Shown here: positions 4,799 to 34,931 of the stretch, in pieces | Position numbering within the stretch: the first letter of the stretch is position 1 | Layout of the letters: each line of letters begins with the position of its first letter | Source: Bacteroidota bacterium | Lineage (GTDB): Bacteria > Bacteroidota > Bacteroidia > Chitinophagales > Chitinophagaceae | Direction: 5' to 3' | Assembly (NCBI GenBank): GCA_018267585.1 | Contig: JAFDYE010000320.1 | Span: 1-34,931, forward strand | Length of the DNA: 34,931 nucleotides | Translations under genes and position numbers: made by a program | The notes under the pieces: generated by a model | The model's input: the letters and a program-made list of their open reading frames with translations, nothing else | Told to the model about the DNA's origin: nothing | Databases searched by the model: none

Positions 4799-4814
4799 AC
4801 GGGTGTGTTGAGTG

Positions 4815-6179: not shown

Positions 6180-6186
6180 GTTTGTG

Positions 6187-7953: not shown

Positions 7954-7959
7954 GTTCTT

Positions 7960-9201: not shown

Positions 9202-9210
9202 GAGTGGCGT

Positions 9211-10242: not shown

Positions 10243-10265
10243 TTTAACCGACTGTGTGACTTGTT

Positions 10266-11444: not shown

Positions 11445-11451
11445 GTTGTAG

Positions 11452-13533: not shown

Positions 13534-13543
13534 GTGTAATGGA

Positions 13544-14965
13544 TTAGTTATTATAACCGGGGTTTTGTTTTGCCAGGGTATTGGTCTGGAGTTCGGTATT
13601 GGGTATGGGCGCTACCAGGTTGTGGGCGTCGATGCTGATGTTGTTGCCCGGGAATTCGTGGGCGAGGTTGGTGTTCATGATCGATATCGCGGCGGCCTGG
13701 CCCATGCGTAGGAGGTCATGCCAGCGGTGGCATTCGAAGGCCAGTTCGACCTGGCGTTCGTGCATCAGCTTTGTTATGAATGTGCCCGGGGTGGCCGGGC
13801 TGATCGCGGTGAGGCCTGCGCGGGCGCGGACCGTGTTGATCAGGGAGTAGGCTTCGGGTGTTTCGCCGAGGGATTCGGCGAGGAGGAGCATGGCGTCGGC
13901 GTAGCGGATGACCGGGAAGTCGGTGTTGGCGTCGTTGCCGACGGCTACGCCAGGGTCTTTGAATTTTAAGATGTAGGGTTGGTTGTTGGCATCATAGCCG
14001 ATGGAGGCTGCGAGTCGCCGGTCACCTGGTTCGTAGGCATTGATGAGGTCCCGGGTGGGGGTGTTGGGCGAGGTGCTGCCGTTGGTCCCACCCGGGACGT
14101 TGAGGCTTGGGGGCGCGAAGAAGTTCCAGAAGGGGCAGCCGTTGAGGGGCGGCAGGAACTGGATCTCGAATATTGATTCGGGTGAGTTCTTTACGCCGGG
14201 TGTCCAGAGGCTTGCATAGTTGGGGAGGAGTGAATAGGGTGTTCCGGCGAAGACGACTTTTCTCAGGGCTGACTGGGCGCCGGCGGCGTCGCCTTTTTGC
14301 AGCAGCACTTTTCCGAGCAGGGCGTTGGCGGCGTATGACGTGGCGCGGCCGATGTTGGCGCCGGTGTAGCTGGGGGGGAGGTTGGTTGCGGCGGACTGGA
14401 GGTCGGCGATGATCTGGCCGTAAACGGAGTCGGTTGTGGCGCGGGTCAGGTTGTTGTCACCGCTGAGGGATTTGGTCTCGTGGATCCTTAGCGGGACGGG
14501 ACCATAGTCCTGGAGGAGCAGGAAGTAGACCTGGGCGCGGATGAACTGTGCTTCGCCGACGATGCCGGCTTTTTTTGTCGCGTCCATGGTGGCTCCGGTG
14601 GCGCGGTCGACGACGGCGTTGCAGAGGTTGATCACGTTGTAGGCGAGGGCCCACATGCCTGTGATGGAGGTATTGCCGGACTGGACGGTGAAGTTATCGA
14701 CGGCCTTGTGTTCTGCCTGGCGTCCGAAGTCCTGGTTGGTGTTGTCGGAGCGGGTCTCTTCGAGGTTGTACAGCGCGAGTTCGGAGCCGGTGTAGAGGTT
14801 TTCGTGGGCGGCGTAGACGCCGTAGATGGCGGCGGTCATGTCCGACTCGTTCTTAAAGAATTCTTCTTTTGGTATCCGGTCGACTGGGACGACGTCGAGG
14901 AAGTCCTTTTTGCAGGCCGGAAGAAGAGCTGTTGCGCATAGCAGGGATATGAATATATTTCGCAT
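13544..14965 (-). CDS. SusD/RagB-family glycan-binding lipoprotein
   Basis: This is a 473-residue surface lipoprotein that caps the SusC channel and binds the glycan. The signal peptide ends in a lipobox (LLPAC, cysteine at about 18, followed by KKDFLDVVP, the usual SusD start). The N-terminal TPR-like helices include FFKNESDMTAAIYGVYA and QFIRAQVYFLLLQDYGPVPL. The conserved end is RYADAMLLLAE, LINTVRARAG, LMHERQVELAFECHRWHDLLRMG and QNPGYNN. It lies 15 nt after susC in the same operon. The length is at the short end for the family. Confidence 0.95.
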   Translation of the reverse strand: MRNIFISLLCATALLPACKKDFLDVVPVDRIPKEEFFKNESDMTAAIYGVYAAHENLYTGSELALYNLEETRSDNTNQDFGRQAEHKAVDNFTVQSGNTSITGMWALAYNVINLCNAVVDRATGATMDATKKAGIVGEAQFIRAQVYFLLLQDYGPVPLRIHETKSLSGDNNLTRATTDSVYGQIIADLQSAATNLPPSYTGANIGRATSYAANALLGKVLLQKGDAAGAQSALRKVVFAGTPYSLLPNYASLWTPGVKNSPESIFEIQFLPPLNGCPFWNFFAPPSLNVPGGTNGSTSPNTPTRDLINAYEPGDRRLAASIGYDANNQPYILKFKDPGVAVGNDANTDFPVIRYADAMLLLAESLGETPEAYSLINTVRARAGLTAISPATPGTFITKLMHERQVELAFECHRWHDLLRMGQAAAISIMNTNLAHEFPGNNISIDAHNLVAPIPNTELQTNTLAKQNPGYNN

Positions 14966-22741: not shown

Positions 22742-22772
22742 ATCACCCTTTTTGGGATGGTGGTTGCCTTTA
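22742..22772 (+). promoter_or_regulatory. Putative ECF-sigma promoter, copy 1 (protease operon)
   Basis: ATCACCC at 22742-22748 and TTGCCTTTA at 22764-22772 are separated by 15 bp with a T-rich start to the spacer. The same two blocks with the same 15-bp gap occur ahead of the anti-sigma gene (26907) and the ABC gene (34568). It ends 23 nt before the protease ATG at 22796. Block spacing and position fit a -35/-10 pair for an alternative sigma factor, and the ECF factor at 26338 is the nearest candidate. Confidence 0.65.
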
Positions 22773-22795
22773 GCCTTATTCGCAACCTAAAAAAA

Positions 22796-25033
22796 ATGAG
22801 AAAAATAGAAAGGCTGGCCCTTTTGGTGGCCCTCCTGTCCTGTGTGCAGGTTCAGGCAAATTCCATTGTATCTGTCCTTCTGTCTGCCGGATGGAAAAGC
22901 AAGCCGGCCGGTGATACTGTCCAGGCTGAGGAATGGCGGCAACAGGCCATCCGTTCGCTGACCGACAGGATAGAAACGGAACATTTTTCCCCTCGGAAGA
23001 TCGATGACACCTATAGCGAGGATGTGTGGAACAAGTTCATCAATGACCTGGATAAAAACAAAGAGCTATTTCTTGCCGATGACCTGCGTAGTCTCGCGCA
23101 GTATAAGACTTCCATCGATGATGAGATGCACATGCATTCCACCCGTTGTTTCGATGCGGTTATAAGTCTTTTCCATCAGCGGATCGGTGAAGTGATGGCA
23201 TTGTATCATTCGTATTTGGCGAAGCCGGTCCGATTTTCCGGCCACAAGACCTTGTTGGAGAGCCGGAAGGCTGCAGTCTGGCCGAAAGACGAGGGCGAAC
23301 GAAGAGCAGTCTGGGAAGACAGGCTTCGCCTGATGGTGTTGAAAAATATGGTCGAAGCGAAGGTTGTGAAGGATGACCGGAAGGCCATTGCCGCGGCCGC
23401 CGAAAGAGTGGGCAAATCATTGGATGTTGTGTATAAATTCAATTCTTCGCCGGAAGGGGACGATCAGCAGTTCAGTATCTACCTGAATGAAATGACAGGG
23501 TGCATGGATCCGCATAGCTCTTATTTTTCTCCTGTCGATGCAAGGACCATGAATGAGGAAATGAGCCATCTCTATTATGGCGTTGGTATGGAACTGACCG
23601 GCAAGGACGGAGATATCACTGTGAAGAAGCTGATGCCGGGGGGCAGCGCGTTGAAGAGCGGGCTGCTGCAGGCGGGGGATAAGATCATCAGCGTGAGCGA
23701 CAAGGATGACCAGCTGATACCTGTTGCCGGAATGCCGCTGGAGGTTGTGGTCAAGATGCTCCGTGGTGAAAAAGGGACGAGCGTCAGAATGCAGATATCG
23801 CGGCCGGGAGAAGCCAGCCGGGTGGTCACCCTGGTGAGGGCGGAGATGCAGAAGGCTGACGCTGGCGCAAGAGCCGCCATCATCGGGAGGGGCGGGCAAA
23901 AGACGGGCTATATCTATCTGCCGATGTTCTATGTCGACATGCAAAATCCGCAAGGTGTCCATTGCTGGCTTGACGTGAAAAAGCTGTTGATGCAGCTGAA
24001 AGATTCGGGTATCACTGACCTTGTGATCGACCTGAGGAATAATCCGGGCGGGTCGCTGGATGAGGTAGCGAATATGGCTGCGCTGTTCATCGATCATGGA
24101 CCGTTGGTCCAGCTGAAAGACAGATATAGTATCAACGGCATGGCCAAGAATCCGGGACAGGCGCCCCTCTACGACGGACCCATGACCGTACTGGTGAACG
24201 GAAGCAGCGCGTCTGCCTCTGAGATATTCGCCGCCGCCATGCAGGACTATCGTCGTGCGATCATCCTTGGCAGTCCGACCTTTGGGAAAGGTACCGCCCA
24301 GGAAAATGTGGCGATGGGGAAGGTAGCCGACAGGGTCCGCAACAAGCCGGCGGTGAGCTATGGCGCGATCAGGCTCTCTATCAAGAAATTCTACCGCATC
24401 AATGGTGGTTCGACGCAGCTGAAAGGTGTGGTGCCGGATGTGCTTTTGCCGGATGGCCGGGATTATATGACGGTGCGTGAAAAGGATATGCCCTTTGCGA
24501 TGCAATGGGATGAGATCGCACCCCTGGATTTTAAGCCTTATCCTTTATGGGATACCGCCTTATTGCGGCATGCGGTGGCGAGGGTCAACCGGGACGCTGC
24601 ATTTTCGATGATCCGGGACAATGTGAAATGGCTCGACGATCACCGCAATACTCCTTATACCCTTGCATTTAAAAAATTCCGTGCCGAAATGGATTCGCTG
24701 AACGATCATCTCGCGCAGATCGCGAAAGCGGCGAATATGGCGCCGGACAATGGGGTCAGTGTGCGCGAGCAGCGGGCTTCTCCCGGGAAGGGAGAGGAGA
24801 CCGGGAAGGGAGAGGAGACCGGGAAGGGAGAAGGGACCGGTAAGGGAGAGGGGATCGGGAAGCGAGAGGGGATCGGGAAGGTAGAGGGGACCGGTAAGGG
24901 AGAGGGAACCGGGAAGGGAGAGGGGGTCGGGAATGTGACGGGGGCCGGGGATAGCGAGTGGGCCGGTCAGCTGAAAAAGGATATCTATATCCGGGAAGCG
25001 ATGAATATTCTGAACGAAATGAATAAAAAATAA
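22796..25033 (+). CDS. prc: S41 tail-specific (Prc/Ctp) protease with PDZ domain
   Basis: This is a 745-residue periplasmic serine protease that degrades proteins with hydrophobic C-termini. I start it at ATG 22796, which gives a clean signal peptide (MRKIERLALLVALLSCVQVQA); the in-frame extension to 22706 reads through the putative promoter. After a helical N-terminal region, the PDZ domain is at about 261-345 (GVGMELTGKDGDITVKKLMP). The S41 core has GYIYLPMFY, DLVIDLRNNPGG and SASASEIF with catalytic Ser about 473, and TFGKGTAQ with Lys498, the normal 25-residue spacing. The C-terminal domain is followed by eight or nine copies of a six-residue GKGEGT-like repeat (about 664-717). The TlpA-like gene follows after 10 nt. 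Confidence 0.94.
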   Translation: MRKIERLALLVALLSCVQVQANSIVSVLLSAGWKSKPAGDTVQAEEWRQQAIRSLTDRIETEHFSPRKIDDTYSEDVWNKFINDLDKNKELFLADDLRSLAQYKTSIDDEMHMHSTRCFDAVISLFHQRIGEVMALYHSYLAKPVRFSGHKTLLESRKAAVWPKDEGERRAVWEDRLRLMVLKNMVEAKVVKDDRKAIAAAAERVGKSLDVVYKFNSSPEGDDQQFSIYLNEMTGCMDPHSSYFSPVDARTMNEEMSHLYYGVGMELTGKDGDITVKKLMPGGSALKSGLLQAGDKIISVSDKDDQLIPVAGMPLEVVVKMLRGEKGTSVRMQISRPGEASRVVTLVRAEMQKADAGARAAIIGRGGQKTGYIYLPMFYVDMQNPQGVHCWLDVKKLLMQLKDSGITDLVIDLRNNPGGSLDEVANMAALFIDHGPLVQLKDRYSINGMAKNPGQAPLYDGPMTVLVNGSSASASEIFAAAMQDYRRAIILGSPTFGKGTAQENVAMGKVADRVRNKPAVSYGAIRLSIKKFYRINGGSTQLKGVVPDVLLPDGRDYMTVREKDMPFAMQWDEIAPLDFKPYPLWDTALLRHAVARVNRDAAFSMIRDNVKWLDDHRNTPYTLAFKKFRAEMDSLNDHLAQIAKAANMAPDNGVSVREQRASPGKGEETGKGEETGKGEGTGKGEGIGKREGIGKVEGTGKGEGTGKGEGVGNVTGAGDSEWAGQLKKDIYIREAMNILNEMNKK
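24785..24946 (+). repeat. 18-bp tandem repeats encoding GKGE(E/G)T units
   Basis: Eight clear in-frame 18-bp units (24785-24928) plus one decayed unit encode GKGEET, GKGEET, GKGEGT, GKGEGI, GKREGI, GKVEGT, GKGEGT, GKGEGV and GNVTGA. They form a flexible, charged, glycine-rich linker near the C-terminus of the protease. The near-identity at DNA level suggests recent slippage, so copy number may vary between strains. Confidence 0.9.
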
Positions 25034-25043
25034 AATTACCAGT

Positions 25044-26138
25044 ATGAAGAAGATCTTTTTTGCAATAGCGTTGATGGCCGTATCGGTGGTACATGCCGAG
25101 GGTCGACTGAATCTGAGCGTGTCCATCGATGGGCTCCCCGACCATGAGATCGTGTTCCTGTACGGTATCACCTCGAAATTTATCGACTCCACTACCATTT
25201 CCAACCATGGCTTCACCTTCGATTCGAATATCAAGAAAGGCGACGTATTTGTCATCCAGGTGGGAAGGGGCGGGGACGTGCATAAGACGATGGTCTTGTT
25301 CCTTGAGCCGGGTAAAGTGTCGATGACCGGGCGGGGGCCTTATTTCGAGGGGATACAGTGTATCGGGCCAGGCTATCTCCAGGAGGGTAGGGAGGTAGAG
25401 AAGATGATGACAGACAGTGTCCGCTTCAAAGGGGCTCTTACGCTGGACCAGGATATTATGGAGGCCTATAAGGTCGGCGACAAGGAGAGAATGCTGGAGC
25501 TGGCGCTCACCAAGAGGGAATATGACAGTGTAAAGAAAGTAATGGGCGAGCAATGGATCATGGCTCACCGGAACTCGCCGGTCAGCGCTTCCGTTCTCAA
25601 TTATTTCGTCCAGCCACAGGTGTCGATAGACTCCCTGAGATGGTATCTTGCGCAGCTCGGGCCCGACGCAAGGAACAATTACCTGGTCGACAATCTTTCC
25701 ATGGTGACAAATTTTTCCGCTGCTACGGTGAATGGTAAACAAGCCATGGATTTTACAGCGCCTGATACGGCGGGTCGTTCTGTCACGCTATCGGGACTGA
25801 GGGGGAAGTACGTGCTGCTCGATTTCTGGGCCAGCTGGTGTAAGCCCTGCCGGGAGTTGACGCCCAAGCTGAAGGCCATGTACGAAAAGTTCAAGGATAG
25901 GAATTTTACGATCCTGAGCGTCTCGCTGGATACCGACAGGGAAAAATGGACCAAGGCCATTGCCGCGGACGGAATGGACTGGCCCCAGGTGTCGGATCTG
26001 AACAAGGAGAACAAGGCGGCCAAATTGTATGGCATCAACGCTATTCCCGCCAGCTTTCTTATCGATCCGCAGGGCAATATCATCGGGTATTCCCCGACCG
26101 AAGCCGCGCTGGAAAAAATATTGAACAAGGGAAATTGA
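25044..26138 (+). CDS. TlpA-like thiol-disulfide oxidoreductase (DUF4369-type N-terminus)
   Basis: This 364-residue periplasmic protein has a signal peptide MKKIFFAIALMAVSVVHA. Residues about 20-125 are a beta-rich domain of the DUF4369 type (FDSNIKKGDVFVIQV, LFLEPGKVSMTGRG), then a helical linker, and from about 228 a TlpA/AhpC-TSA thioredoxin domain (DFTAPDTAGRSVTLSGLRGKYVLLDFWASWCKPC) with the redox motif CKPC and the cis-proline segment INAIPASFLIDPQG. Such proteins reduce or isomerise disulfides in the periplasm. It lies 10 nt after the protease gene and is surely cotranscribed; a terminator follows at 26240. Confidence 0.93.
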   Translation: MKKIFFAIALMAVSVVHAEGRLNLSVSIDGLPDHEIVFLYGITSKFIDSTTISNHGFTFDSNIKKGDVFVIQVGRGGDVHKTMVLFLEPGKVSMTGRGPYFEGIQCIGPGYLQEGREVEKMMTDSVRFKGALTLDQDIMEAYKVGDKERMLELALTKREYDSVKKVMGEQWIMAHRNSPVSASVLNYFVQPQVSIDSLRWYLAQLGPDARNNYLVDNLSMVTNFSAATVNGKQAMDFTAPDTAGRSVTLSGLRGKYVLLDFWASWCKPCRELTPKLKAMYEKFKDRNFTILSVSLDTDREKWTKAIAADGMDWPQVSDLNKENKAAKLYGINAIPASFLIDPQGNIIGYSPTEAALEKILNKGN

Positions 26139-26239
26139 GGATATTCCCGATGAATGCGTTTTGCGCGCTGATGAAGCATAACTCTGACAAATGTGTTTCG
26201 CGCCCTTGACGTCTCATGTGATCAGTTGTTAGTGTTAAC

Positions 26240-26285
26240 AGAGGCCATCTGCCGGTGACAAAATACCGCAGGTGGTCTCTTTATT
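26240..26285 (+). terminator. Intrinsic terminator of the protease-thioredoxin operon
   Basis: A long imperfect stem joins AGAGGCCATCTGCCGGT (26240-26256) with ACCGCAGGTGGTCTCT (26265-26280), with one bulge and two G-T pairs. A T-rich tail (CTCTTTATTAT) follows. It lies about 100 nt after the thioredoxin stop and just ahead of the sigma factor gene. Confidence 0.75.
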
Positions 26286-26312
26286 ATGTGATTTTTTCTT
26301 CGATAAATCCTT

Positions 26313-26320
26313 TATATTTG
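26313..26320 (+). promoter_or_regulatory. Probable -7 element of the ECF sigma gene
   Basis: TATATTTG is an exact match to the Bacteroidota -7 consensus TAnnTTTG, 17 nt ahead of the sigma factor ATG. No good TTTG is seen 19 bp upstream (TGTG lies 22 bp away), so promoter strength is uncertain. It suggests the sigma gene is read by the housekeeping sigma factor, separately from the anti-sigma gene. Confidence 0.5.
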
Positions 26321-26337
26321 AAGGCACTGCTTGAGAA

Positions 26338-26889
26338 ATGGGGGTCAAAAAGATTCAAATAGCGAACCGTCAGGAATTGGAGGAGCTGTTCAAGAAGCAC
26401 TATCACTTTCTTTGTACGGCGGCCTATTATATTACCGGTGATGAATCGACCGCTAAGGACATCGTGCAGGATTTTTTTTATTACTGCTGGAAAAAGCGCG
26501 AAGAGATCATCATTGCCGGCGAGTTCAAGAGCTATGCGTCGCGGGCCATCCGAAATGCCTGTCTGAATTACCTCAAATCTTCGCGGCGAACCTCATTACT
26601 CTCCGAATTTGTTTACAGCAGCGAGCCTTTGGCCAACGAGTCTGTCCAGCCGGACGAAGAAGGGCTGGAAGAGCGAAATAAGGCTCTCTGGGCGTCTATC
26701 GACCGCCTGCCGGAGCAGCGGCGATTGATCTTTTTGCTGAGCAATAAGGAAGAGCTTAGCTATGCAGAGATCGCCCGGCGCCTGGGTATCTCGGTCAATA
26801 CGGTGAAGACGCAGATCCGTCTGGCGTATCAATATCTGCGTGAGGAATGCAGATGGCTTGTGTATTTCCTTATTTTGCTTTTTTTGTAA
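26338..26889 (+). CDS. ECF RNA polymerase sigma factor (FecI-like)
   Basis: This is a 183-residue sigma-70 factor of the extracytoplasmic function group. Region 2 spans about 10-80 (LFKKHYHFLCTAAYYITGDESTAKDIVQDFFYYCWKKRE, SYASRAIRNACLNYLKSSRR) and region 4 about 115-170 (IDRLPEQRRLIFLLSNKEELSYAEIARRLGISVNTVKTQIRLAYQYL). It ends in a hydrophobic tail (WLVYFLILLFL), common in Bacteroidota FecI-like factors. It is followed by a FecR-like anti-sigma gene and an STN-domain SusC, the standard trans-envelope signalling trio. It is the best candidate to recognise the two-block element found three times in this window, including directly after this gene. Confidence 0.95.
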   Translation: MGVKKIQIANRQELEELFKKHYHFLCTAAYYITGDESTAKDIVQDFFYYCWKKREEIIIAGEFKSYASRAIRNACLNYLKSSRRTSLLSEFVYSSEPLANESVQPDEEGLEERNKALWASIDRLPEQRRLIFLLSNKEELSYAEIARRLGISVNTVKTQIRLAYQYLREECRWLVYFLILLFL

Positions 26890-26906
26890 AAAAAATAACA
26901 AATGGA

Positions 26907-26937
26907 ATCACCCTATTTTGATGCCCGATTGCCTTTT
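26907..26937 (+). promoter_or_regulatory. Putative ECF-sigma promoter, copy 2 (anti-sigma / susC operon)
   Basis: ATCACCC at 26907-26913 and TTGCCTTTT at 26929-26937 are separated by 15 bp. It lies in the 73-nt gap between the sigma factor stop and the anti-sigma ATG, 25 nt before the latter, which would let the sigma factor drive fecR, susC, susD and the lipoprotein gene. See the copies at 22742 and 34568. Confidence 0.7.
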
Positions 26938-26962
26938 AATAGACACCTTATCTTAAGTGTAT

Positions 26963-28228
26963 ATGGACAAGCAGGAAAATAATATTCGCCTCTTTCTCAA
27001 ACGGCTCAGGGCGAGGCTTCGGCCGCTGGATCCGGCGGCGCGTTTCCCCATTGAGGAAGGCTGGCGGCAGTTGGAAAAGCGCATCGACGCCGGAGAGGAA
27101 GAGGGTACAGGTGATGAACGGTATGCCGGGGGTGATGTAAAAGTTCCCGGGGGTGAAGTGCAGGTTCCCGGGGCTGAGGTGGGAGATCCGGGTGATGAAG
27201 TGCTTGTTTCCGCGGGTGATGGGAGATATCGCGTGGGTGATGTCAATGGTGGGGCGCGGGTTTTCAGGATGAGATTTAGCTATGCGGCTGCGGTCGTGCT
27301 GATCCTGCTGGCGGGCGGCATCTACTGGTGGATGCGGGGAACGCGGGTACAGGGAGTAGCCAACGCCGGGATCGCCCATAGTCAGCCGGAGAAAGCGCAG
27401 AAGGCCATTTTGCCGCCTTCGAAAGGCGTTCAGCTTATTCTCTCCGATGGAAGGGCTGTCCCTGTCGGGCAGCGGCAGACCCTGGCGGAACAGGGGGGTG
27501 TGGCCATTCATACCGATAGCGGGAAGGTTGAATATCAGCCGAATCAGGGGGCGATGCCCAATACAACGCCGGGTGAAATGGCTTATAATACGCTGGAGGT
27601 ACCGCGAGGCAACAAGGCGAGGATGGTCCTGCCGGATGGCACGAAAGTCTGGATCAATGCCGCGTCCAAAATGAGGTATCCTACGGCATTCAGAGGGGCG
27701 CTCAGAGAAGTGGAACTGTCCGGAGAGGCCTATTTCGAGATTAACCAGGATGAAGAGCATCCCTTTATTGTGCATGCCGGGAAGATGGATATCCGGGTGC
27801 TTGGAACGGCGTTCAATGTGAATACTTTTGAACCTAGTTACTACACTACGCTGGTCAGGGGGAAGGTGAGCGTTAAAGGCAAGGCGGATGAAACGTTGCT
27901 ATTGCCAGGGGAGCAGGCGGCTTTGAACACTGTCAACGGGGACGTAAGGAAAATGACTGTCAACACGGCTGACTTTACCGCCTGGAAGGATGATCATTTG
28001 TTCATCGGGAATTGTTCATTCGATAAGATGGTTGAATTACTTGGCCGGGAATTCGACTATGATATTCTGCTGGCGGATCCGTCGCTGAAACAATTCCATT
28101 TTACGATCGATCTGCCGGCTCCCAAAAGCCTGCAGGAGGTGTTGGAGCATATCTGCAACACCAGGGAAGGGATCCAGTTCACCATTACGGGAAGGACTGT
28201 GATCATCAGCCGTACCGAAGGGCATTGA
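26963..28228 (+). CDS. FecR-family anti-sigma factor
   Basis: This 421-residue inner-membrane anti-sigma protein starts at ATG 26963 (MDKQENNIRLF); a GTG two codons earlier is possible but less likely. The N-terminal cytoplasmic part (1-100) binds the sigma factor. A single membrane helix is at about 104-123 (YAAAVVLILLAGGIYWW). The periplasmic FecR domain (about 200-320) contains LEVPRGNKARMVLPDGTKVWINAASKMRYP, VELSGEAYFEI and LGTAFNVNTF. The C-terminal DUF4974-type domain (FSFDKMVELLGREFDYDI, IQFTITGRTVIISR in outline) would touch the STN domain of the neighbouring SusC. Residues about 56-83 are four seven-residue repeats. Confidence 0.94.
   Translation: MDKQENNIRLFLKRLRARLRPLDPAARFPIEEGWRQLEKRIDAGEEEGTGDERYAGGDVKVPGGEVQVPGAEVGDPGDEVLVSAGDGRYRVGDVNGGARVFRMRFSYAAAVVLILLAGGIYWWMRGTRVQGVANAGIAHSQPEKAQKAILPPSKGVQLILSDGRAVPVGQRQTLAEQGGVAIHTDSGKVEYQPNQGAMPNTTPGEMAYNTLEVPRGNKARMVLPDGTKVWINAASKMRYPTAFRGALREVELSGEAYFEINQDEEHPFIVHAGKMDIRVLGTAFNVNTFEPSYYTTLVRGKVSVKGKADETLLLPGEQAALNTVNGDVRKMTVNTADFTAWKDDHLFIGNCSFDKMVELLGREFDYDILLADPSLKQFHFTIDLPAPKSLQEVLEHICNTREGIQFTITGRTVIISRTEGH
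27128..27211 (+). repeat. 21-bp repeats encoding GGDVKVP-like units in the anti-sigma gene
   Basis: Four consecutive 21-bp in-frame units encode GGDVKVP, GGEVQVP, GAEVGDP and GDEVLVS. The first two are close at the DNA level; the others have drifted. They form an acidic, glycine/proline-rich linker between the sigma-binding part and the membrane helix. Confidence 0.75.
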
Positions 28229-28241
28229 TCTCACACAATAC

Positions 28242-28313
28242 CGGATGACAAATGTCCGGGCGAATCGGATGACAAATGTCCGGGCGAATCGGATAACAAA
28301 TGTCCCGTCGAAC
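28242..28313 (+). repeat. Three 24-bp tandem repeats between anti-sigma gene and susC
   Basis: Units at 28242-28265 and 28266-28289 are identical; the third at 28290-28313 differs at four positions. Each contains the small inverted repeat GACA-AA-TGTC (GACA altered to AACA in unit three), flanked by CCGGA or CGGA and TCC. They lie 106-177 nt before the susC ATG. In one frame they read MTNVRANR, but no protein family begins this way, so I regard them as non-coding. Repeated protein-binding sites, small RNA hairpins or plain slippage products are all possible. Confidence 0.85.
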
Positions 28314-28418
28314 CCGGTGATTGAATACAACGCACGAGCTTTATCCGGAAGGTTACCTTATTCCCGGAGCGCCTATCCTATACCGGAATTTTATTACAAA
28401 ACCAACTACACAAGGCTT

Positions 28419-31400
28419 ATGAGATTTGATTTGCTGCCGCCCGTTGCCGGGCGTGTAAAAAGGGCTGCTATTTCCCCTGCAGCCTGGCTGCTGCTCTTTT
28501 TCCTTTCTGCCGGATCTTCCCTTCGGGCGCAAGAAACCCGTCCCCTGGACAAACGTGTCAATTTCTCGGCAAAGAATGTCTCTTTGCAGGATGCCCTCGG
28601 CACCCTGCGGATGATATCCGGCGCCGCGATCACTTTTAATTATGAAGAGGTCGACAAGCAACCCCGGATCACCCTGCATTTGACCAATGAGACCGTGCGT
28701 CGCATCCTTGAAAAGATATTGGTGCAGACGTCGCTGCAATATATCGAGGATGACAATGGCGGCGTCATCCTGAGTCCCCGGAAGAACAGGAGAGACCAGG
28801 TGAGAGGCAGTCTTGGATTCATCGTAGAAGGGCAGGTCGTGGATCGGAAAGGGTTTCCCCTTTCCAATGCGAGCGTCCAGGTGGTGGGTGAAAAATATGG
28901 CGCCACCACGGACGGCAACGGACTGTTCAGAACGGTGGTGACCGAAGGGATGGTGTTGCGCGTCAGCTACCTGGGCATGAAGACGGTCGACCATGCGATC
29001 AAGGGCAGGGACTTTGTGCGGATCATGATGGATACGGTCCCGGCAGTGATGAATGACTATGTGGTCACCGGTTATCAGAATATCGACAAGCGGATGCTGA
29101 CCAGCTCGGTGTATACCCTGACTCCCGACAAGTTCCTGGAATCGGGCGTTCCGTCTGTGAGCCAGATGTTGCAGGGCAAAGTGCCCGGCCTGGTCCTCAC
29201 CAATCCTTCCGGTAGTCCGTCCTCCACGCCGAAGATCAGGATAAGGGGTACCTCTACCATTCTTGGCAACGCTTCGCCGGTGTGGGTGGTCGATGGGATC
29301 ATCCGGGAAGACCCTGTCGATCTCAATCCGCTGCAGATCAATGCTGCATTGCAGGATGCCCAGAGTGCGAACTTCAGCATAGTAGGGAATGCCATCGCTG
29401 GCCTGAACCCTTATGATATTGAGAGCATTACATTTCTGAAGGACGCTTCCGCCACGGCCATTTACGGTATCAGGGCCGCGAACGGGGTCATCGTCGTAAA
29501 GACCAAAAGGGGCAAGCCCGGGCCCATAGCGCTTAGCTATACTACATCGGTAGGGTTTACGGGCCGGCCAAGTTATAGGAACATCGATGCTATGAACTCG
29601 AAAGAGCGGATCGATGTTTCCCGCGAAGCTGCTGAAAAGGGGACCTACTATGCCGATGTGCCGCTGCCTGCTTCCTACGAAGGGTTGCTGCAGCAGCTGT
29701 ATACGCGGAACATTACGCAGGACCAGTTCGACCGGCAGGTGGGGCAGCTGGAGACCATGAACACCGACTGGCTGAAGATACTGGCCCGGAATCAGTTCAA
29801 CCAGACTCATTCGATAGGCATTTCGGGCGGGGCGGGAAGAACGACATATTATGCTTCGCTGGGGTATACCGATATGAGCGGGGCCTTCCAGGGTGACAAT
29901 AACAAACTGTATTCTATGCTGGTCAACCTGGACGGGGCGATCAACAACAAGATCAACTTCAGCGTGCATGTGGATGGTTCCTACCGGACGTCGGATCAGT
30001 TCTACAAAGTGAATCCCAGTGACTATGCTTTAAAGACCAGTCGTGCGATATCGGCGGATTCGCCTTATGTCAAGAACTGGGCTCACCCGGTGTCGGGAGG
30101 AACGCAGCCGCTGCACTATTCCATCCTCAATGAACTGGCACAGACAGGCAACACGAACTCCACCCAGGGGTTCAATGCATCTGCCGTCCTCGCCTGGCAT
30201 ATCCTTCCGGGTCTGACCTATTCGGGTACATTCGGCGGGGCGCTGAACAGCGATCGCAGCTTTGTGTATGCCGCTGAACGGAGCTATTATATTACGACGC
30301 TTCGCGGTTACGACTATGGCGCCGCCGCCAACGGAAGTGCGCTGCAGCACTATTCCTTATTCCCGTTCGGCGGAATAGGTATACCCGGCAGTACGAGCGG
30401 GCTCACGTATACGGTCAGGAACCAGCTGGATTTCAATCATAATTTTTTTGGTGGAAGGGACCAGCTCACCGTCACGGCAATACAGGAGCTGCGTTCCACC
30501 AAGAGCCAGGGCTCGACCAGTCAGGAACTGGGGTATTACCCGGACAGGGGCCAGACGTATTATTCGTCCTATTATGCCACGCTCAATCCAAACCCGATGC
30601 TGAGGCATTATGTCCAGACCACCGACAGGGTCGACAATACGATGTCGTGGATCGGCAGTGCCAGCTACCGGCTTAGGAAACGATACACGGTCAATGCCAA
30701 TATCCGGACCGATGGCAACAACCGGTTTGGCCAGTACGCCAATCAAAAATTTCTTCCTACCTGGAGCGTTTCCGGAAGGTGGGACATCGGGGAGGAGCCC
30801 TGGTTGACCAAGAGCGATATTCTCAGCGGCTGGGAGATGCATCTGAGTTATGGAACGCAGGGGAATGTGGTCACTAATGTAGGACCCAACCTGATCGCCA
30901 ACTATCCGCAGAGCCCTGTGGATCCCAGCACGAATGAGTATATCCTGAGCCTGCAGAGTCTGCCCTATCCAGATCTTCGCTGGGAGAAGACTCACCAGTG
31001 GAATGGCGGTACTTCGCTGAACCTCTTCAACGGTCATGTCATGCTTGGCGTCGACGCCTATTATAAGAAGAGCAACGATCTCATCGTCACCAAGAATATA
31101 CCCGAGGAATATGGGATCCCTCAGATGTATATGAACTATGGGTCGATGGACAACTATGGGTTTGAGGGTAATTTGACCGTAACCCCTATTCGCCGGAAGG
31201 ATTTCACCTGGGACCAGACCTTTATCTATTCCCAGAATTACAATAAGGTGATCCAGTCCGACCTGAAATACACCTATGCTGATTTTCTCAGTGGGAATGC
31301 GATCGTGCCTGGTAAGCCCCTTGGCGCCCTGTATTCTTATGCCTATACGGGGCTCAGTCACCAGTATGGCATCCCGCAGTATGACCTGGGTCCGGCAAAA

Positions 31401-32006
31401 GGTTCCGACCCTACTTCCTTCCTGTCGTATACGGGGAGGCGTGATCCGCTGATCGATATGGGAACCGCCACCAGTATCCGGTATCATGCGCTGAGCCTGA
31501 TCGCGGACTTCCATGTGGTCTTCGGAAATCACAAGCGGCTGAACTCTATTTATAATGGAATGGCCGGATCGTGGGCGGGTCTTCCGGCCTCGGACCAGAA
31601 CCTGCCCAAGGAGCTGGTGGATCGCTGGCGGGCGCCGGGGGATGAAAAGCATACCAATATACCCGCTTTCACCAATTGGTACCAGCAGGCCGGCTATCTA
31701 CATATCCCGACGTTGAACGGATACACCGACTATGTATCGCCCTATACCATGTACGATCTGTCGACGGCGAGGGTCGTCAACGGAAGCTATGTCCGGTGCA
31801 AGTCACTTTCTTTAAGGTATACGCCGCCCGCGGCCTTAATGAAAGGAATGGGTATCAAGAGCAGTACTATTTCGGGTACCGTAAACAATCCATTCGTTAT
31901 TAAAAGCAAGGACATGCGCTGGCAGGATCCGGAGATCGACAATGCCGGCGGGACTGCGCTGCCGATAACGGCCTCTTATTATCTGACCGTGAACATAACC
32001 TTTTAA
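28419..32006 (+). CDS. SusC/RagA TonB-dependent transporter with STN signalling domain
   Basis: This 1195-residue outer-membrane importer is taken from ATG 28419; the in-frame extension upstream only reads through tandem repeats. After a signal peptide (ending SLRAQ, about residue 43) comes an STN domain (about 48-115, VNFSAKNVSLQDALGTLRMIS), which signals to the FecR-like protein. Then follow a carboxypeptidase-D-regulatory-like domain (FIVEGQVVDRKGFPLSNASVQVVG), a TonB box (YVVTGYQ), a plug (LQGKVPGLVLTNPSGSPSS, IRIRGTSTILG) and the barrel ending YYLTVNITF. Transducer SusC proteins of this type sense their own substrate. The substrate is unknown: no enzyme gene for a sugar is nearby, and the company of a protease suggests a peptide or glycopeptide as one possibility. 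Confidence 0.95.
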   Translation: MRFDLLPPVAGRVKRAAISPAAWLLLFFLSAGSSLRAQETRPLDKRVNFSAKNVSLQDALGTLRMISGAAITFNYEEVDKQPRITLHLTNETVRRILEKILVQTSLQYIEDDNGGVILSPRKNRRDQVRGSLGFIVEGQVVDRKGFPLSNASVQVVGEKYGATTDGNGLFRTVVTEGMVLRVSYLGMKTVDHAIKGRDFVRIMMDTVPAVMNDYVVTGYQNIDKRMLTSSVYTLTPDKFLESGVPSVSQMLQGKVPGLVLTNPSGSPSSTPKIRIRGTSTILGNASPVWVVDGIIREDPVDLNPLQINAALQDAQSANFSIVGNAIAGLNPYDIESITFLKDASATAIYGIRAANGVIVVKTKRGKPGPIALSYTTSVGFTGRPSYRNIDAMNSKERIDVSREAAEKGTYYADVPLPASYEGLLQQLYTRNITQDQFDRQVGQLETMNTDWLKILARNQFNQTHSIGISGGAGRTTYYASLGYTDMSGAFQGDNNKLYSMLVNLDGAINNKINFSVHVDGSYRTSDQFYKVNPSDYALKTSRAISADSPYVKNWAHPVSGGTQPLHYSILNELAQTGNTNSTQGFNASAVLAWHILPGLTYSGTFGGALNSDRSFVYAAERSYYITTLRGYDYGAAANGSALQHYSLFPFGGIGIPGSTSGLTYTVRNQLDFNHNFFGGRDQLTVTAIQELRSTKSQGSTSQELGYYPDRGQTYYSSYYATLNPNPMLRHYVQTTDRVDNTMSWIGSASYRLRKRYTVNANIRTDGNNRFGQYANQKFLPTWSVSGRWDIGEEPWLTKSDILSGWEMHLSYGTQGNVVTNVGPNLIANYPQSPVDPSTNEYILSLQSLPYPDLRWEKTHQWNGGTSLNLFNGHVMLGVDAYYKKSNDLIVTKNIPEEYGIPQMYMNYGSMDNYGFEGNLTVTPIRRKDFTWDQTFIYSQNYNKVIQSDLKYTYADFLSGNAIVPGKPLGALYSYAYTGLSHQYGIPQYDLGPAKGSDPTSFLSYTGRRDPLIDMGTATSIRYHALSLIADFHVVFGNHKRLNSIYNGMAGSWAGLPASDQNLPKELVDRWRAPGDEKHTNIPAFTNWYQQAGYLHIPTLNGYTDYVSPYTMYDLSTARVVNGSYVRCKSLSLRYTPPAALMKGMGIKSSTISGTVNNPFVIKSKDMRWQDPEIDNAGGTALPITASYYLTVNITF

Positions 32007-32015
32007 TATACTGTT

Positions 32016-33539
32016 ATGAGAAATTATTCAACATCCTTCCTGCTATTGCTGATCGTCCTGGGAGGCGTTTCCTGTAAAAAATTCCTGCAAGAGAGAGACC
32101 AGAGCGAGATGACGCCGGTGACAACGGAATCGTATAGCGAGCTCTTTTTCGGGACTGGCTATCCCCTGTCCTCGATCATATATCAACAGGCGACGAGCCT
32201 TATGGACGATGACATCCAGGTGTATATGGGACCCAATGGCGACCCCACCATCCCACCGCAGGTGTTGCCGGCTTTTTCCTGGCAGGCAGATTTTTTCCGG
32301 CAATTGATCGCCTCCAAGTTTGATGGTTCAGGGGGGACGATCGATGGCTACAAGAATTATTACCAGAGTCTTGTCGGCTGCAATATCGCCCTCCAGTATG
32401 TAGATGGTTCTGTCGGGACGCAGGCGGACAAGGATTTTCTGAAAGGACAGGCATTCGCCTTGCGCGCCTACTATTATCTTCAGCTGGTCAATCTTTATGG
32501 CCGGCCCTATAATGACTCGACCATCAGTCCGGACAAGAGTCCCGGCGTGCCGCTGATCCTGAGTTCAAACCTGTCTGCGGATCTCCCTGCCCGCAGCAGT
32601 GTTGCGAAAGTGTACGACCAGATCGTGCGAGACCTGGATAGCGCATCCGCCAGACTGGATGGAGCAAAGCGGACGGGAGATGTCTTCCGGCTTGACCATA
32701 TTTCCACGCATTTGCTGGCTTCCCGGGTGAGCCTGTATATGGGCCGGTGGGATGATGTGATCAACCATGCCAGCTATGTGCTGAAATACCATCCGCAGCT
32801 GATGGACCTTAATACCTGGGGATTGAATACCGGATGGGCTTATGGTCAGGGTACTTTTAAGACCATCATCGGGAACGGAAATCCCGAGACGCTCTGGGCC
32901 TTCGGTAATATAGGGGAGAATGCTCCGATGAACGACCTTATCTCCTGTGATGTATCGGAGGACCTGGCCAGGCAGTTCGACCCGATGGACCTGCGTAGCC
33001 AGATCTATTTTGGCGCTATCCCGCCTTTTTTGTCACAATGGATATCTCCGCTTTTTGTATCGCAGAAACGCGACCCGGCCAGTTCGGGCGGGATCGCCAA
33101 CGCAGTCATCGGGTGTTCGTTCCGCAGTTCGGAAGCCTATCTGAACCGTGCCGAGGCTTATGCGCAGAAATACCTGGCGACCGGAGATGCGAGCGCCGCG
33201 CAAAACGCCCTCAATGATCTCAATACGCTGCGGTCCAAGCGGTACGATCCGTCGGTATTCCAACCGCTGGGCGCCATGCCGGCGGACTCCTTGTTACGGT
33301 TCTGCCGCAATGAGCGCAGGAGGGAATTTTTCGGTGAGGGTCAACGCTGGTTTGATCTGCGCAGGTATGGCATGCCGTCGATCACCCATCTTTATTCCCC
33401 GGTGTCGGGCACGATCCAAAAGTATGTACTGAACGCGCATGATCCGCAGTATACCCTGCAGATACCGCCCACGGCGCTGCTCCTGAACCCTAACCTGGAG
33501 CAAAATCCTGCAGGGCCGACGAGGAATCCATCCAATTAA
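32016..33539 (+). CDS. SusD/RagB-family substrate-binding lipoprotein
   Basis: This is a 507-residue surface lipoprotein partner of the preceding SusC, 9 nt upstream. The signal peptide ends in a lipobox (LGGVSC, cysteine at about 21, then KKFLQERDQSEMTPV). SusD hallmarks include FLKGQAFALRAYYYLQLVNLYGRPYND, SSEAYLNRAEAYAQKYLATGD, LNDLNTLRSKRYD and FCRNERRREFFGEGQRWFDLRRYGMPSI. The C-terminal part is shorter than usual after that motif (ends RNPSN). It would bind the same unknown substrate. Confidence 0.95.
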   Translation: MRNYSTSFLLLLIVLGGVSCKKFLQERDQSEMTPVTTESYSELFFGTGYPLSSIIYQQATSLMDDDIQVYMGPNGDPTIPPQVLPAFSWQADFFRQLIASKFDGSGGTIDGYKNYYQSLVGCNIALQYVDGSVGTQADKDFLKGQAFALRAYYYLQLVNLYGRPYNDSTISPDKSPGVPLILSSNLSADLPARSSVAKVYDQIVRDLDSASARLDGAKRTGDVFRLDHISTHLLASRVSLYMGRWDDVINHASYVLKYHPQLMDLNTWGLNTGWAYGQGTFKTIIGNGNPETLWAFGNIGENAPMNDLISCDVSEDLARQFDPMDLRSQIYFGAIPPFLSQWISPLFVSQKRDPASSGGIANAVIGCSFRSSEAYLNRAEAYAQKYLATGDASAAQNALNDLNTLRSKRYDPSVFQPLGAMPADSLLRFCRNERRREFFGEGQRWFDLRRYGMPSITHLYSPVSGTIQKYVLNAHDPQYTLQIPPTALLLNPNLEQNPAGPTRNPSN

Positions 33540-33556
33540 ACTATAAATCCAGTAAT

Positions 33557-34432
33557 ATGGCTACACAATATAAACCCTTAATGTCCGGATACGTAAGTGT
33601 CTGCATTGTTTTCCCGGCGTTGCTGACTTTGCTGACTGTCGCCTGCCAGAAGGAGTCGGCTCTGACCCCCTCGCCGGCAAAGCCTTTGTATACGCTGCCG
33701 CAGGGCAATCATTCTTACGACCAGTCCATCCTACAGTTCTATCAGAATTACCATAGCCTTATTCTGTACCGTTATGACAGCATTGCTTACAATTATAATG
33801 TGACGGGCCCGTTGAACCCGGATTTGGCGATGACGGTGGCCGATACCAATTATATTTCCCCGGCGTTGGATTTTCTTCATGCCAACTGGCTGGACCTCTA
33901 TCCCAGCGCCTTTTTGCAGCAGACCCTGCCGTACAAGATACTGCTGTCGTCGCAGATCAGCGTCGCGAATATCTTTTTCGGCCAGGTCAGGGATTATAGC
34001 TATTACCCTGCGATGGGTGGCCTGAACTATGTCGCTTTTGGACTTGTGAACGATTCTCTGCAGACCCTGAGTGCCCGGCAGGTCGATTCGACGCGGGGAT
34101 TGCTGCAACAGGCCTTCTGGCAACAGGCGGTCCAGAATAAGATGATCGAGCGGCCTGGTGCCTTCGACTCGCTGACCAATTATGCCCAGGTGGATCAGAC
34201 CAACCTGCGTCAAAATGGGATGTTCTTTTATCACCCATATGGTAATAACGGCGTGGTGGATTTCCTGGACTATATCCGGGTGATCACCTCCACCGACTCA
34301 ACCACGATGAGCAATACCTGGCTGTCGCCCGCGGTCGATGTCAATGGGCTTTATGCTGCGAAGTACAATATGATCCTGGACTATTACATCCAGAATTATG
34401 GAGTGAATTTGCAGGCCATCGGGAACAAATAA
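33557..34432 (+). CDS. Lipoprotein resembling the SusCD-linked zinc metallohydrolase family, HExxH lost
   Basis: This is a 291-residue predicted lipoprotein with the lipobox LTVAC (Cys30). Its architecture and place after susC and susD recall the substrate-import-associated zinc metallohydrolase lipoproteins of Bacteroidota: an early segment with YRYDS, about 100 residues on a PYKILL strand, a helix where the family has the HExxH motif, and a final KYNMILDYYIQNYGVNLQAI helix. Where the family reads roughly IQHEFAH, this protein reads LQQAFWQ (QAFWQ at 185-189), so both zinc-binding histidines and the glutamate appear replaced. If the match is right it is a non-catalytic relative that may simply bind the substrate. 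The family link is from memory and needs a profile search. It is 17 nt after susD. Confidence 0.65.
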   Translation: MATQYKPLMSGYVSVCIVFPALLTLLTVACQKESALTPSPAKPLYTLPQGNHSYDQSILQFYQNYHSLILYRYDSIAYNYNVTGPLNPDLAMTVADTNYISPALDFLHANWLDLYPSAFLQQTLPYKILLSSQISVANIFFGQVRDYSYYPAMGGLNYVAFGLVNDSLQTLSARQVDSTRGLLQQAFWQQAVQNKMIERPGAFDSLTNYAQVDQTNLRQNGMFFYHPYGNNGVVDFLDYIRVITSTDSTTMSNTWLSPAVDVNGLYAAKYNMILDYYIQNYGVNLQAIGNK

Positions 34433-34457
34433 TTTGTTGGCAGTGCATTGAATTAAG

Positions 34458-34497
34458 ATCCGGGCTGCGGGGTAATACCTGCAGCCCGGATTCGTTT
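34458..34497 (+). terminator. Intrinsic terminator of the fecR-susCD operon
   Basis: ATCCGGGCTGC (34458-34468) pairs perfectly with GCAGCCCGGAT (34481-34491), and three further pairs can form inside. A moderately T-rich tail (TCGTTTT) follows. It lies 25 nt after the lipoprotein stop. Confidence 0.8.
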
Positions 34498-34567
34498 TGC
34501 GGAGTGGTTATGTGGTGGTGACGGGGGATATAATGTGTTGGACCATTTAAAAAAATAGGGGTGGCCG

Positions 34568-34598
34568 ATCACCCTTTTCTTAGGACGGGTTGCCTTTA
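34568..34598 (+). promoter_or_regulatory. Putative ECF-sigma promoter, copy 3 (ABC transporter gene)
   Basis: ATCACCC at 34568-34574 and TTGCCTTTA at 34590-34598 are separated by 15 bp, as in copies 1 and 2. It ends only 4 nt before the ABC ATG, so if it is a -10 block the message would be nearly leaderless. This is closer than in the other two copies (25 and 23 nt). Confidence 0.6.
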
Positions 34599-34602
34599 TT
34601 TT

Positions 34603-34931
34603 ATGAGCAGCATTTTAACCATCGAACGGCTGTCGCACAAGTACAGCAGTACCTGGGCCATCCGGGATATCAATATGGAAATCCACCAGAACGGGGTGGT
34701 AGGTCTCCTGGGATCGAATGGCGCGGGTAAATCCACGACCATGAATATTGTATGTGGTGTCCTTAATCAGACCGAAGGGAGGGTATTGATCAACGGAAGG
34801 GACCTTCGCGAAGAGACTGAAGCCGCCAAACGGGATATCGGCTTTTTGCCGCAGAACCCGCCCTTGTATACCGACCTGACCATTGACGAATATCTTGTCT
34901 ATTGTGCCGAACTGCGGATGATACCCAGGGA
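34603..34931 (+). CDS. ABC transporter ATP-binding protein, N-terminal part
   Basis: The first 109 codons of an ABC ATPase run off the right edge. The start MSSILTIERLSHKYSSTWAIRDINMEI is typical. Walker A is GSNGAGKST (about 38-46), followed by the usual GVLNQTEGRVLINGRDLREE stretch and the Q-loop GFLPQNPPLYTDLTIDEYL. It is similar in type to the CcmA/GldA-like exporter ATPases of Bacteroidota, but the transported substrate cannot be told without the rest of the operon. It is preceded by the third copy of the putative ECF promoter. Confidence 0.93.
   Translation, partial: MSSILTIERLSHKYSSTWAIRDINMEIHQNGVVGLLGSNGAGKSTTMNIVCGVLNQTEGRVLINGRDLREETEAAKRDIGFLPQNPPLYTDLTIDEYLVYCAELRMIPR

Follow-up and report, generated by a model that had tools for sequence, protein, structure and literature searches.

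A two-block element ahead of three operons at a FecI-like sigma factor locus of a Chitinophagaceae bacterium: a candidate ECF promoter linked to a Prc-type protease

The sigma factor locus and its three elements

The window analyzed here is one whole contig (C245) of 34,931 nucleotides from a bacterium of the family Chitinophagaceae, whose genome comprises 7,017,949 bases in 929 contigs and is 95% complete. On the + strand, the window carries genes of a Prc/Tsp-type periplasmic protease (22796..25033), a TlpA-like thioredoxin with a DUF4369 domain (25044..26138), an extracytoplasmic function (ECF) sigma factor (26338..26889), a FecR-type anti-sigma factor or sigma regulator (26963..28228), a SusC/RagA TonB-dependent transducer with an STN signalling domain (28245..32006, start uncertain), a SusD-like surface lipoprotein (32016..33539), a protein without a Pfam match (33557..34432) and an ABC transporter ATPase with a GldA/DrrA-like N-terminus (34603..34931), which is cut by the contig end. 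Except for the protein without a Pfam match, these assignments come from domain or profile matches. The sigma factor has the Sigma70_r2 and r4_2 regions and matches TIGR02985, the profile of Bacteroidota FecI-like factors, with 137.4 bits, above the cut-off of 126.4. The FecR gene starts 73 bases past the sigma stop, and its product contains PF04773 and FecR_C. The STN domain (PF07660) occupies residues 134-178 of the SusC protein. An ECF sigma factor, an adjoining FecR and an STN-bearing TonB-dependent receptor, the set that marks FecI/FecR cell-surface signalling, are all present at the locus. The whole genome contains 52 FecR matches. The protein at 33557..34432 was called a lipoprotein in the original prediction; we keep this name and used the protein as a marker for finding related loci. 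At the start of the SusC frame, a 24-bp unit is repeated three times (28242-28312), each copy with an ATG; the true start may thus lie downstream, and the copy number could alter the N-terminus. The FecR gene contains degenerate 21/42-bp repeats (27126-27221).

The element in question is ATCACCC-N15-TTGCCTTT. It occurs three times, always on the + strand, at 22742..22771, 26907..26936 and 34568..34597 (elements 1, 2 and 3). As the original prediction stated, 15 bases at equal spacing are shared exactly, and each copy lies just upstream of a start codon: the elements stop 24, 26 and 5 bases short of the ATGs at 22796 (protease), 26963 (FecR) and 34603 (ABC ATPase). Element 2 is indeed located between the ECF sigma and anti-sigma genes, past the sigma stop at 26889. 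The copies are identical at 19 of 30 positions, namely the 15 named bases and positions 8, 10, 11 and 21. The string TAnnTTTG is absent from all three, again as claimed; its only + strand occurrences in the window, at 12839, 26313 and 27823, lie outside the elements. One of them, TATATTTG at 26313..26320, judged by eye only, fits the Bacteroidota housekeeping -7 box TAnnTTTG and may be a separate promoter of the sigma gene.

The absence of a fourth copy, originally noted by eye, extends to the whole genome for the exact form: all 3 copies are in the window (0.010 expected from base composition), and the reversed-pattern control gave 0. In 60 dinucleotide-shuffled windows, no pair of a 7-base and an 8-base word separated by 5 to 30 bases recurred three times; shorter 6+6 pairs did so in 10 of 10 shuffled windows. 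On the + strand of the real window, other 7+8 pairs with at least three copies all fell within a tandem array of 18-bp units in the protease gene. Allowing up to two mismatches, we found 32 further matches in the genome, and the reversed control gave 7. Twenty-seven of the 32 were examined. Open frames of at least 200 codons enclosed 24 of them, including all 6 that lay within 100 nt of the ATG of an open reading frame (ORF) of at least 100 codons. A larger regulon is not indicated. A match with one mismatch on another contig of this genome (L054, C663) was rejected, since it lies inside an open frame.

ECF promoters consist of two blocks about 15–17 bp apart just upstream of the target genes, and their -10 block is usually of the CGTC or GTC type. 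The fixed spacing of the blocks described here, just before genes, agrees with the first of these features. We propose, with a probability of about 85%, that the element is a promoter read by the adjacent FecI-like sigma factor. ATCACCC would be the -35 block and TTGCCTTT the -10 block, with 15 bp between them. Elements 1 and 2 are accordingly predicted to be the promoters of the protease-TlpA and FecR-SusC-SusD-lipoprotein operons, and element 3 that of the ABC ATPase gene, whose mRNA would be near-leaderless if the promoter is real. Alternatively, a classical transcription factor, an activator or a repressor, could bind the element while another sigma factor starts transcription. Such a factor would not need the near-leaderless mRNA that a promoter at site 3 implies. 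However, the element is asymmetric rather than palindromic, has ECF-like block lengths and spacing, is oriented with the gene that follows and changes with the neighboring sigma paralogue within one genome, as described below. This makes a transcription factor quite improbable.

Elements at orthologous loci and their per-locus variants

Two sets of related loci (numbered L; genomes are numbered G) were compared. For the first set, 294 family genomes were searched with the lipoprotein, which matched 34 times in 21 of them (the present genome being one); twenty 20-kb regions were taken. The second set came from searching 84,980 species genomes with a sigma factor alignment; the best 80 of at least 408 confirmed loci were kept. 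Gene content in both sets was searched with the window's own proteins as queries. FecR, SusC, SusD and lipoprotein genes occur together in 20 of 20 regions of the first set. In 16 of them, tblastn placed the sigma gene directly before FecR (not in L129, L131, L135 and L136), and a profile search found an upstream sigma ORF also in L131, L135 and L136. In the second set, L137-L151 (15 of the best 80), mostly from Chitinophaga, have sigma factors 47-60% identical to that of the window; two of them, L137 and L139, had already appeared in the first set as L120 and L118.

The sigma-FecR gaps of the closest orthologues contain TTCACCC (TTCACTC in L117), followed 15 bases past this block by TTGCCTTA in L117, TTGTCTAT in L126, GTGTTATA in L118 and L119, and GTGTTTAG in L120. 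The gaps of L140, L141 and L142 carry exact TTCACCC-N15-TTGCCTTT. The element also precedes Prc genes located 5' of the sigma gene, as in the window (L142, L143, L145, L146 and, as an N14 variant, L147), and Prc genes located 3' of the lipoprotein gene (L144, L148, L117). Thus, it follows the genes when their place changes. Genes of TlpA, redoxin or DUF4369 proteins have it in L140, L142, L143 and L146 (Pfam) and in L141 (by tblastn only). In L140, L141 and L144, it stands ahead of the sigma frame, 37-79 bases from its first ATG. In L117, a Prc gene and then a TlpA gene follow the lipoprotein gene. The grouping of a protease and a thioredoxin with import genes, noted in the original prediction, recurs in relatives: their Prc and TlpA genes lie in or beside the sigma-FecR-SusCD operon, many with an element. 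An ABC gene 65-68% identical to the window fragment follows the lipoprotein gene in L122-L125.

The expected enrichment within 100 nt of start codons turned out to be strong at the orthologous sigma loci. In 13 loci (L140-L151 and L117; 255 kb), there were 24 sites at spacer 15 with up to two mismatches, and 21 of these had the ATG of an ORF of 100 or more codons within 100 nt. At spacers of 12, 13, 14, 16, 17 and 18, the same loci held 3, 3, 3, 2, 2 and 2 sites. Twenty shuffles of the 13 loci gave a mean of 1.2 sites and a maximum of 5, none of them before the ATG of an ORF of that length. Among 65 more distant sigma loci (1.16 Mb) there was no excess: 10 sites at spacer 15 and 6-11 at the others. 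L137-L139 had no site at spacer 15 with up to two mismatches, because their -10 block is different. These comparisons also bear on whether the element is a 5' untranslated region or translation-level signal common to the three mRNAs, to which its position 5-26 bases ahead of the start codons in the window would be suited. Before the Prc genes of the clade described below, however, the element stands anywhere from 5 to 116 bases ahead of the ATG (5 in L145, 6 in L146), the spacer varies in sequence while its length is kept, and in L144 and L117 the end of the sigma reading frame runs into a site. We consider such a signal very improbable.

Whole-genome scans placed the element almost exclusively at such loci. 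In eight Chitinophaga genomes (56 Mb), TTCACCC-N15-TYGCCTWW had 20 matches (reversed control 1), of which 19 were at sigma loci of this kind: 16 at those used to pick the genomes and 3 at a second locus of G401; 1 was stray. In G401, the N15-TYGCCTWW form has 3 matches, all at L245, and TTCACCC-N14-GTGTC has 2 matches in 7.9 Mb, before the Prc and FecR genes of L147 (reversed control 0). The separate private elements at L245 and L147 indicate that G401 holds two such systems. Variation among sites is smaller within a locus than between loci: for 32 sites in the 12 loci with at least two, the mean within-locus distance was 1.39 versus 2.48 after shuffling, and 0 of 20,000 shuffles were as low, a contrast that the kinship of loci inflates somewhat. 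A degenerate form was scanned for in five further family genomes and had 6 matches in four of them (reversed control 0): in two FecR gaps (G226, G002), before one Prc gene of G018 and two of G102, and before one TlpA gene (G102). One of the G102 Prc sites is about 0.5 Mb from the sigma locus. The same genome has TTCACCC-N15-GTGCTTTA before a Prc gene (L248, G102:C2:83000-88000) and before a TlpA gene (L249, G102:C2:1578000-1584000). These lie about 1.5 Mb apart, the TlpA gene being near another sigma-FecR pair, and are perhaps the split regulon of a second sigma factor.

It is also conceivable that the elements are ECF promoters, but that another ECF sigma factor, or several with overlapping specificity, read the protease-TlpA and ABC genes. 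The 52 FecR matches mean many sigma-FecR pairs in this genome, and in G102 two elements are unlinked to the sigma locus, one of them beside another pair. Yet the three copies in the window agree in every one of the 15 block positions and have no further copy in the genome, and elements vary by locus as sets, so this possibility appears unlikely. That the factor at 26338 reads all three sites, as originally proposed, is supported by comparison with orthologous loci, the ABC site being the weakest in this respect.

We also asked whether the motif is common in genomes without an orthologue of this sigma factor. Exact ATCACCCT-N14-TTGCCTTT is rare: among 394 family genomes including this one, it had six matches in six of the 393 others, which is not a clean test, since the window form begins with A and nearly all orthologues with T. 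A regulon in these six genomes was rejected, as none of the matches was seen at such a sigma locus (same-strand frames were checked): three lie inside same-strand open frames (L081, L082, L086), two are not followed within about 110 bases by the start of an 80-codon ORF (L083, L085), and one precedes a possible unrelated ORF (L084). TCACCC occurs in the sigma tail or gap of 34 of 54 loci, with 0.6 expected from mononucleotide shuffling, and TCACCT in two more; the 54 are those of the best 80 with a FecR match after the sigma gene, including L202 and L213 with implausible gaps of more than 600 bases. A KYGYY word follows at 14 (2 loci), 15 (12) or 16 (7) bases in 21 of these 36 loci; at these distances, the other 15 have no such word. 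TCACCC as a -35 block thus looks common, not universal, among nearby FecI-like sigma factors. The -10 block, TTGCC here, is replaced at about the same place in other sigma-FecR gaps by TTGTC, GTGTC or GCGTC. Six Chitinophaga sigma factors 40-43% identical (L190, L192, L196, L197, L204, L212) have a uniform GTCACCC-N16-TTGTCTTA in the sigma-FecR gap.

A Prc clade linked to the sigma loci

The original prediction described the protease as an S41 protease. The S41 domain is present, and the full order TSP_NTD-PDZ-S41-DUF3340, which that description missed, corresponds to a complete Prc/Tsp; with this identity, the link between protease and FecR gains a known mechanistic meaning. Among solved structures, its best matches are chains with the name tail-specific protease (E 2e-92). 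The score of 414.5 bits against NF008388 (carboxy terminal-processing peptidase, PRK11186) is below 825, and the protein is a Prc by its domains, not by this model. Ser 452 and Lys 477, which we take to be the catalytic residues of E. coli Prc, align with Ser473 and Lys498 of the window protein. The columns of Ser473, Lys498 and Gln502 are kept in 18 of 18 members of the clade described next and in 55 of 55 other Prc. Near the 3' end of the gene, an 18-bp unit is repeated 8.4 times (24783-24933); read by hand in frame, it encodes Gly-Lys-Gly-Glu-Gly-Thr repeats.

Prc (PF17804) was found in 96 of 98 family genomes, mostly with one match each. We took 60 Prc regions, comprising the copies of multi-copy genomes and 8 single-copy ones (G092 was left out); the second Prc copies of this genome and of G018 were added separately. 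A quick tree was built from the 73 of 77 Prc genes with at least 600 aa (L151, L305, L307 and L324 were dropped). It contains an 18-row clade (SH-aLRT 99) made up of 15 sigma-locus genes, including L247, and of L284, L286 and L248. A separate set is formed by 33 other Prc, each from a different genome, which we read as housekeeping Prc, and 22 lie elsewhere in the tree, among them L285 and L288 with sigma-FecR pairs nearby. The second Prc copy of this genome is a gene fragment at the end of a 3-kb contig (L246, G000:C24) and perhaps represents the housekeeping copy.

The pattern NTCACCC-N14-16-KYGYCWWW was searched for in the 160 bases upstream of each Prc gene. With up to one mismatch, it was present in 12 of the 18 clade members versus 0 of 55 others, and with up to two mismatches in 14 versus 2 (Fisher 1e-9, with rows that are not independent). 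Most clade sites were known before this test; those of L284 and L286 were not. L284 has TlpA and SusC genes and lies about 25 kb from a sigma locus on the same contig. The idea that extra Prc copies in the family are generally linked to signalling was rejected, since among the 60 regions a sigma match and a FecR match occurred together only in L285, L286 and L288.

What the protease does at the locus can be seen in two ways. Its role may be in import, where together with TlpA it would trim or clear peptides or misfolded proteins, and not in signalling. RagAB-type SusCD pairs can import peptides. TlpA-like redoxins often adjoin, which also fits import. The window protease, however, is a full Prc with its catalytic residues kept. 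Moreover, Prc in Pseudomonas and E. coli is described as acting on FecR-like proteins before RseP (PMC9249621, where the E. coli result is cited as unpublished), and passages of PMC9249621 and PMC11637429 report it as needed for FecR, IutY and FoxR signalling, the FecR result again as unpublished. We regard the chances of the import role as even; it is compatible with a promoter read by the adjacent sigma factor, except for the step from Prc to FecR.

A predicted regulon with an inhibitor and a protease

Several observations weigh against an ECF promoter shared by these genes. The support for it comes from sequence comparison. The loci are related by descent, so that counts are not independent, and the patterns were picked after the first sites were known. 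TTGCC differs from the usual CGTC-type -10 block. A de novo two-block expectation-maximization (EM) search over 57 sigma-FecR upstream regions did not recover the motif. Of these regions, 38 were from this genome and 19 from relatives; they were those with a sigma ORF among 70 FecR loci (50 of the 52 FecR matches of this genome and 20 relative loci). The solution obtained, GC-rich sigma ends followed by AT-rich gaps, was rejected as compositional, though its likelihood beat 8 shuffles. TCACC[CT] was not found in the sigma-FecR gaps of L148, L149 and L150, and L151 gave no site. The degenerate form had no match in G177, and the FecR gap site of G102 itself does not fit it. Only in the window was an element found before the ABC gene. 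Where relatives have a linked ABC gene, it stands behind the lipoprotein gene, and their sigma factors are only 25-37% identical. The inclusion of the ABC gene, for which only the rarity of the element and the operon context of distant relatives speak, is thus among the weakest parts of the proposal. Site 3 and the protease sites of L145 and L146, only 5-6 bases from the ATG, would imply near-leaderless mRNAs; the Flavobacterium psychrophilum map gives 5.5% leaderless mRNAs (PMC9723704). Four clade Prc genes have no element before them (L140, L141, L149, L150); all four directly follow the lipoprotein gene. Finally, although the tree places the window Prc with the locus clade, it is most identical to a Prc of the housekeeping set (38%, L309). 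With this and its long branch, its placement is less sure than the support value suggests.

If the element is indeed read by the adjacent sigma factor, the system would work as follows. A substrate bound by SusC/SusD would signal through the STN domain of SusC to FecR, and the sigma factor would be released. The released factor would transcribe the FecR-SusC-SusD-lipoprotein genes, the genes of the Prc-type protease and TlpA thioredoxin, and the ABC ATPase gene. Production of FecR would damp the response, and production of Prc, whose relatives break down the periplasmic portion of FecR-like proteins, would strengthen or sustain it if Prc cuts FecR, so that the loop would be closed through both. 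The sigma gene of the window has no element, and TATATTTG upstream of it fits the housekeeping box; the sigma factor may therefore be made constitutively. The sequences themselves show the elements, how rare they are, that orthologous loci conserve them, that they covary by locus, and the Prc clade. From these comparisons we infer that the sigma factor binds the sites, that they start transcription and how the signal travels, least firmly the cleavage of this FecR by this Prc and the place of the ABC gene in the regulon. The locus probably encodes a cell-surface signalling system that also controls a dedicated Prc. A further idea is more doubtful, though still worth considering: the sigma factor may transcribe FecR, its inhibitor, and along with it a dedicated Prc that evolves separately and cuts this FecR, with paralogous systems kept apart by private promoters and private proteases. 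If true, one regulon would contain a brake and the release of that brake.

As in FecI-FecR-FecA and the Bacteroidota sigma/anti-sigma SusCD systems, an ECF sigma factor, FecR and an STN receptor are grouped here, and the receptor operon is the predicted target. Unlike in those systems, the predicted targets include a Prc-type protease and a thioredoxin, and in the window FecR, but not the sigma gene, lies behind a predicted sigma-dependent promoter. The combination of a Prc-type protease with a FecR-like regulator resembles the processing of Pseudomonas IutY and FoxR and of E. coli FecR by Prc and RseP. There, Prc is described as also needed for other cell processes, as are CtpA and RseP (PMC11637429), whereas the signalling system described here has a Prc from a separate clade at its locus and probably under its control. 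How FecR-type proteolysis starts and is limited is described as unclear for FoxR in that paper (PMC11637429), and the linked Prc clade offers a direct route to this question.

ECF-type sigma factors have also been named, or suggested, as the readers of two known promoter motifs that depart from TAnnTTTG, SM6 of F. psychrophilum and PM2 of Bacteroides thetaiotaomicron. A CGT box characterizes SM6, whose promoters belong to type IX secretion genes (PMC9723704); PM2 has -10/-30 boxes (PMC7366714) and is linked to SigW-1 and SigH-1 (PMC12596196). TCACCC-N15-TTGCC was not found in the relevant passages of these three accounts. The NCBIfam families GFO_1088 (sigma) and GFO_1087 (carboxy-terminal peptidase), whose genes are neighbors judging by their numbers, also pair an ECF sigma factor with a peptidase, but the window proteins reach 90.8 of 130 and 40 of 455 bits, far below the cut-offs. 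Titles and beginnings of abstracts yielded no prior report of the element or of a regulon-encoded Prc, the 2021 ECF classification and the EcfO paper lying outside this search. A Bacteroidota genome can encode dozens of such sigma factors, and their promoters are poorly known: ECF promoter prediction was called a challenging task in a 2013 regulon study (PMC3878776), and according to the 2020 B. thetaiotaomicron map, none of the alternative ECF factors of this species had a known motif at the time (PMC7366714). A per-locus code, read by comparing the sigma-FecR gap with neighboring genes, would make such regulons predictable. What would surprise a specialist is mainly the Prc predicted in the regulon and the private codes of paralogous systems.

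Elsewhere in the window, the - strand carries a divergent cluster (2157-14965) with two LacI-type regulators, an MFS permease, L-fucose isomerase, DUF6786, DUF2961 and SusD, apparently a fucose-related utilization locus. In this cluster, the frame 2157-4781 starts about 540 codons ahead of its LacI domain and overlaps the ORF 3173-4798; its true start is thus probably later.

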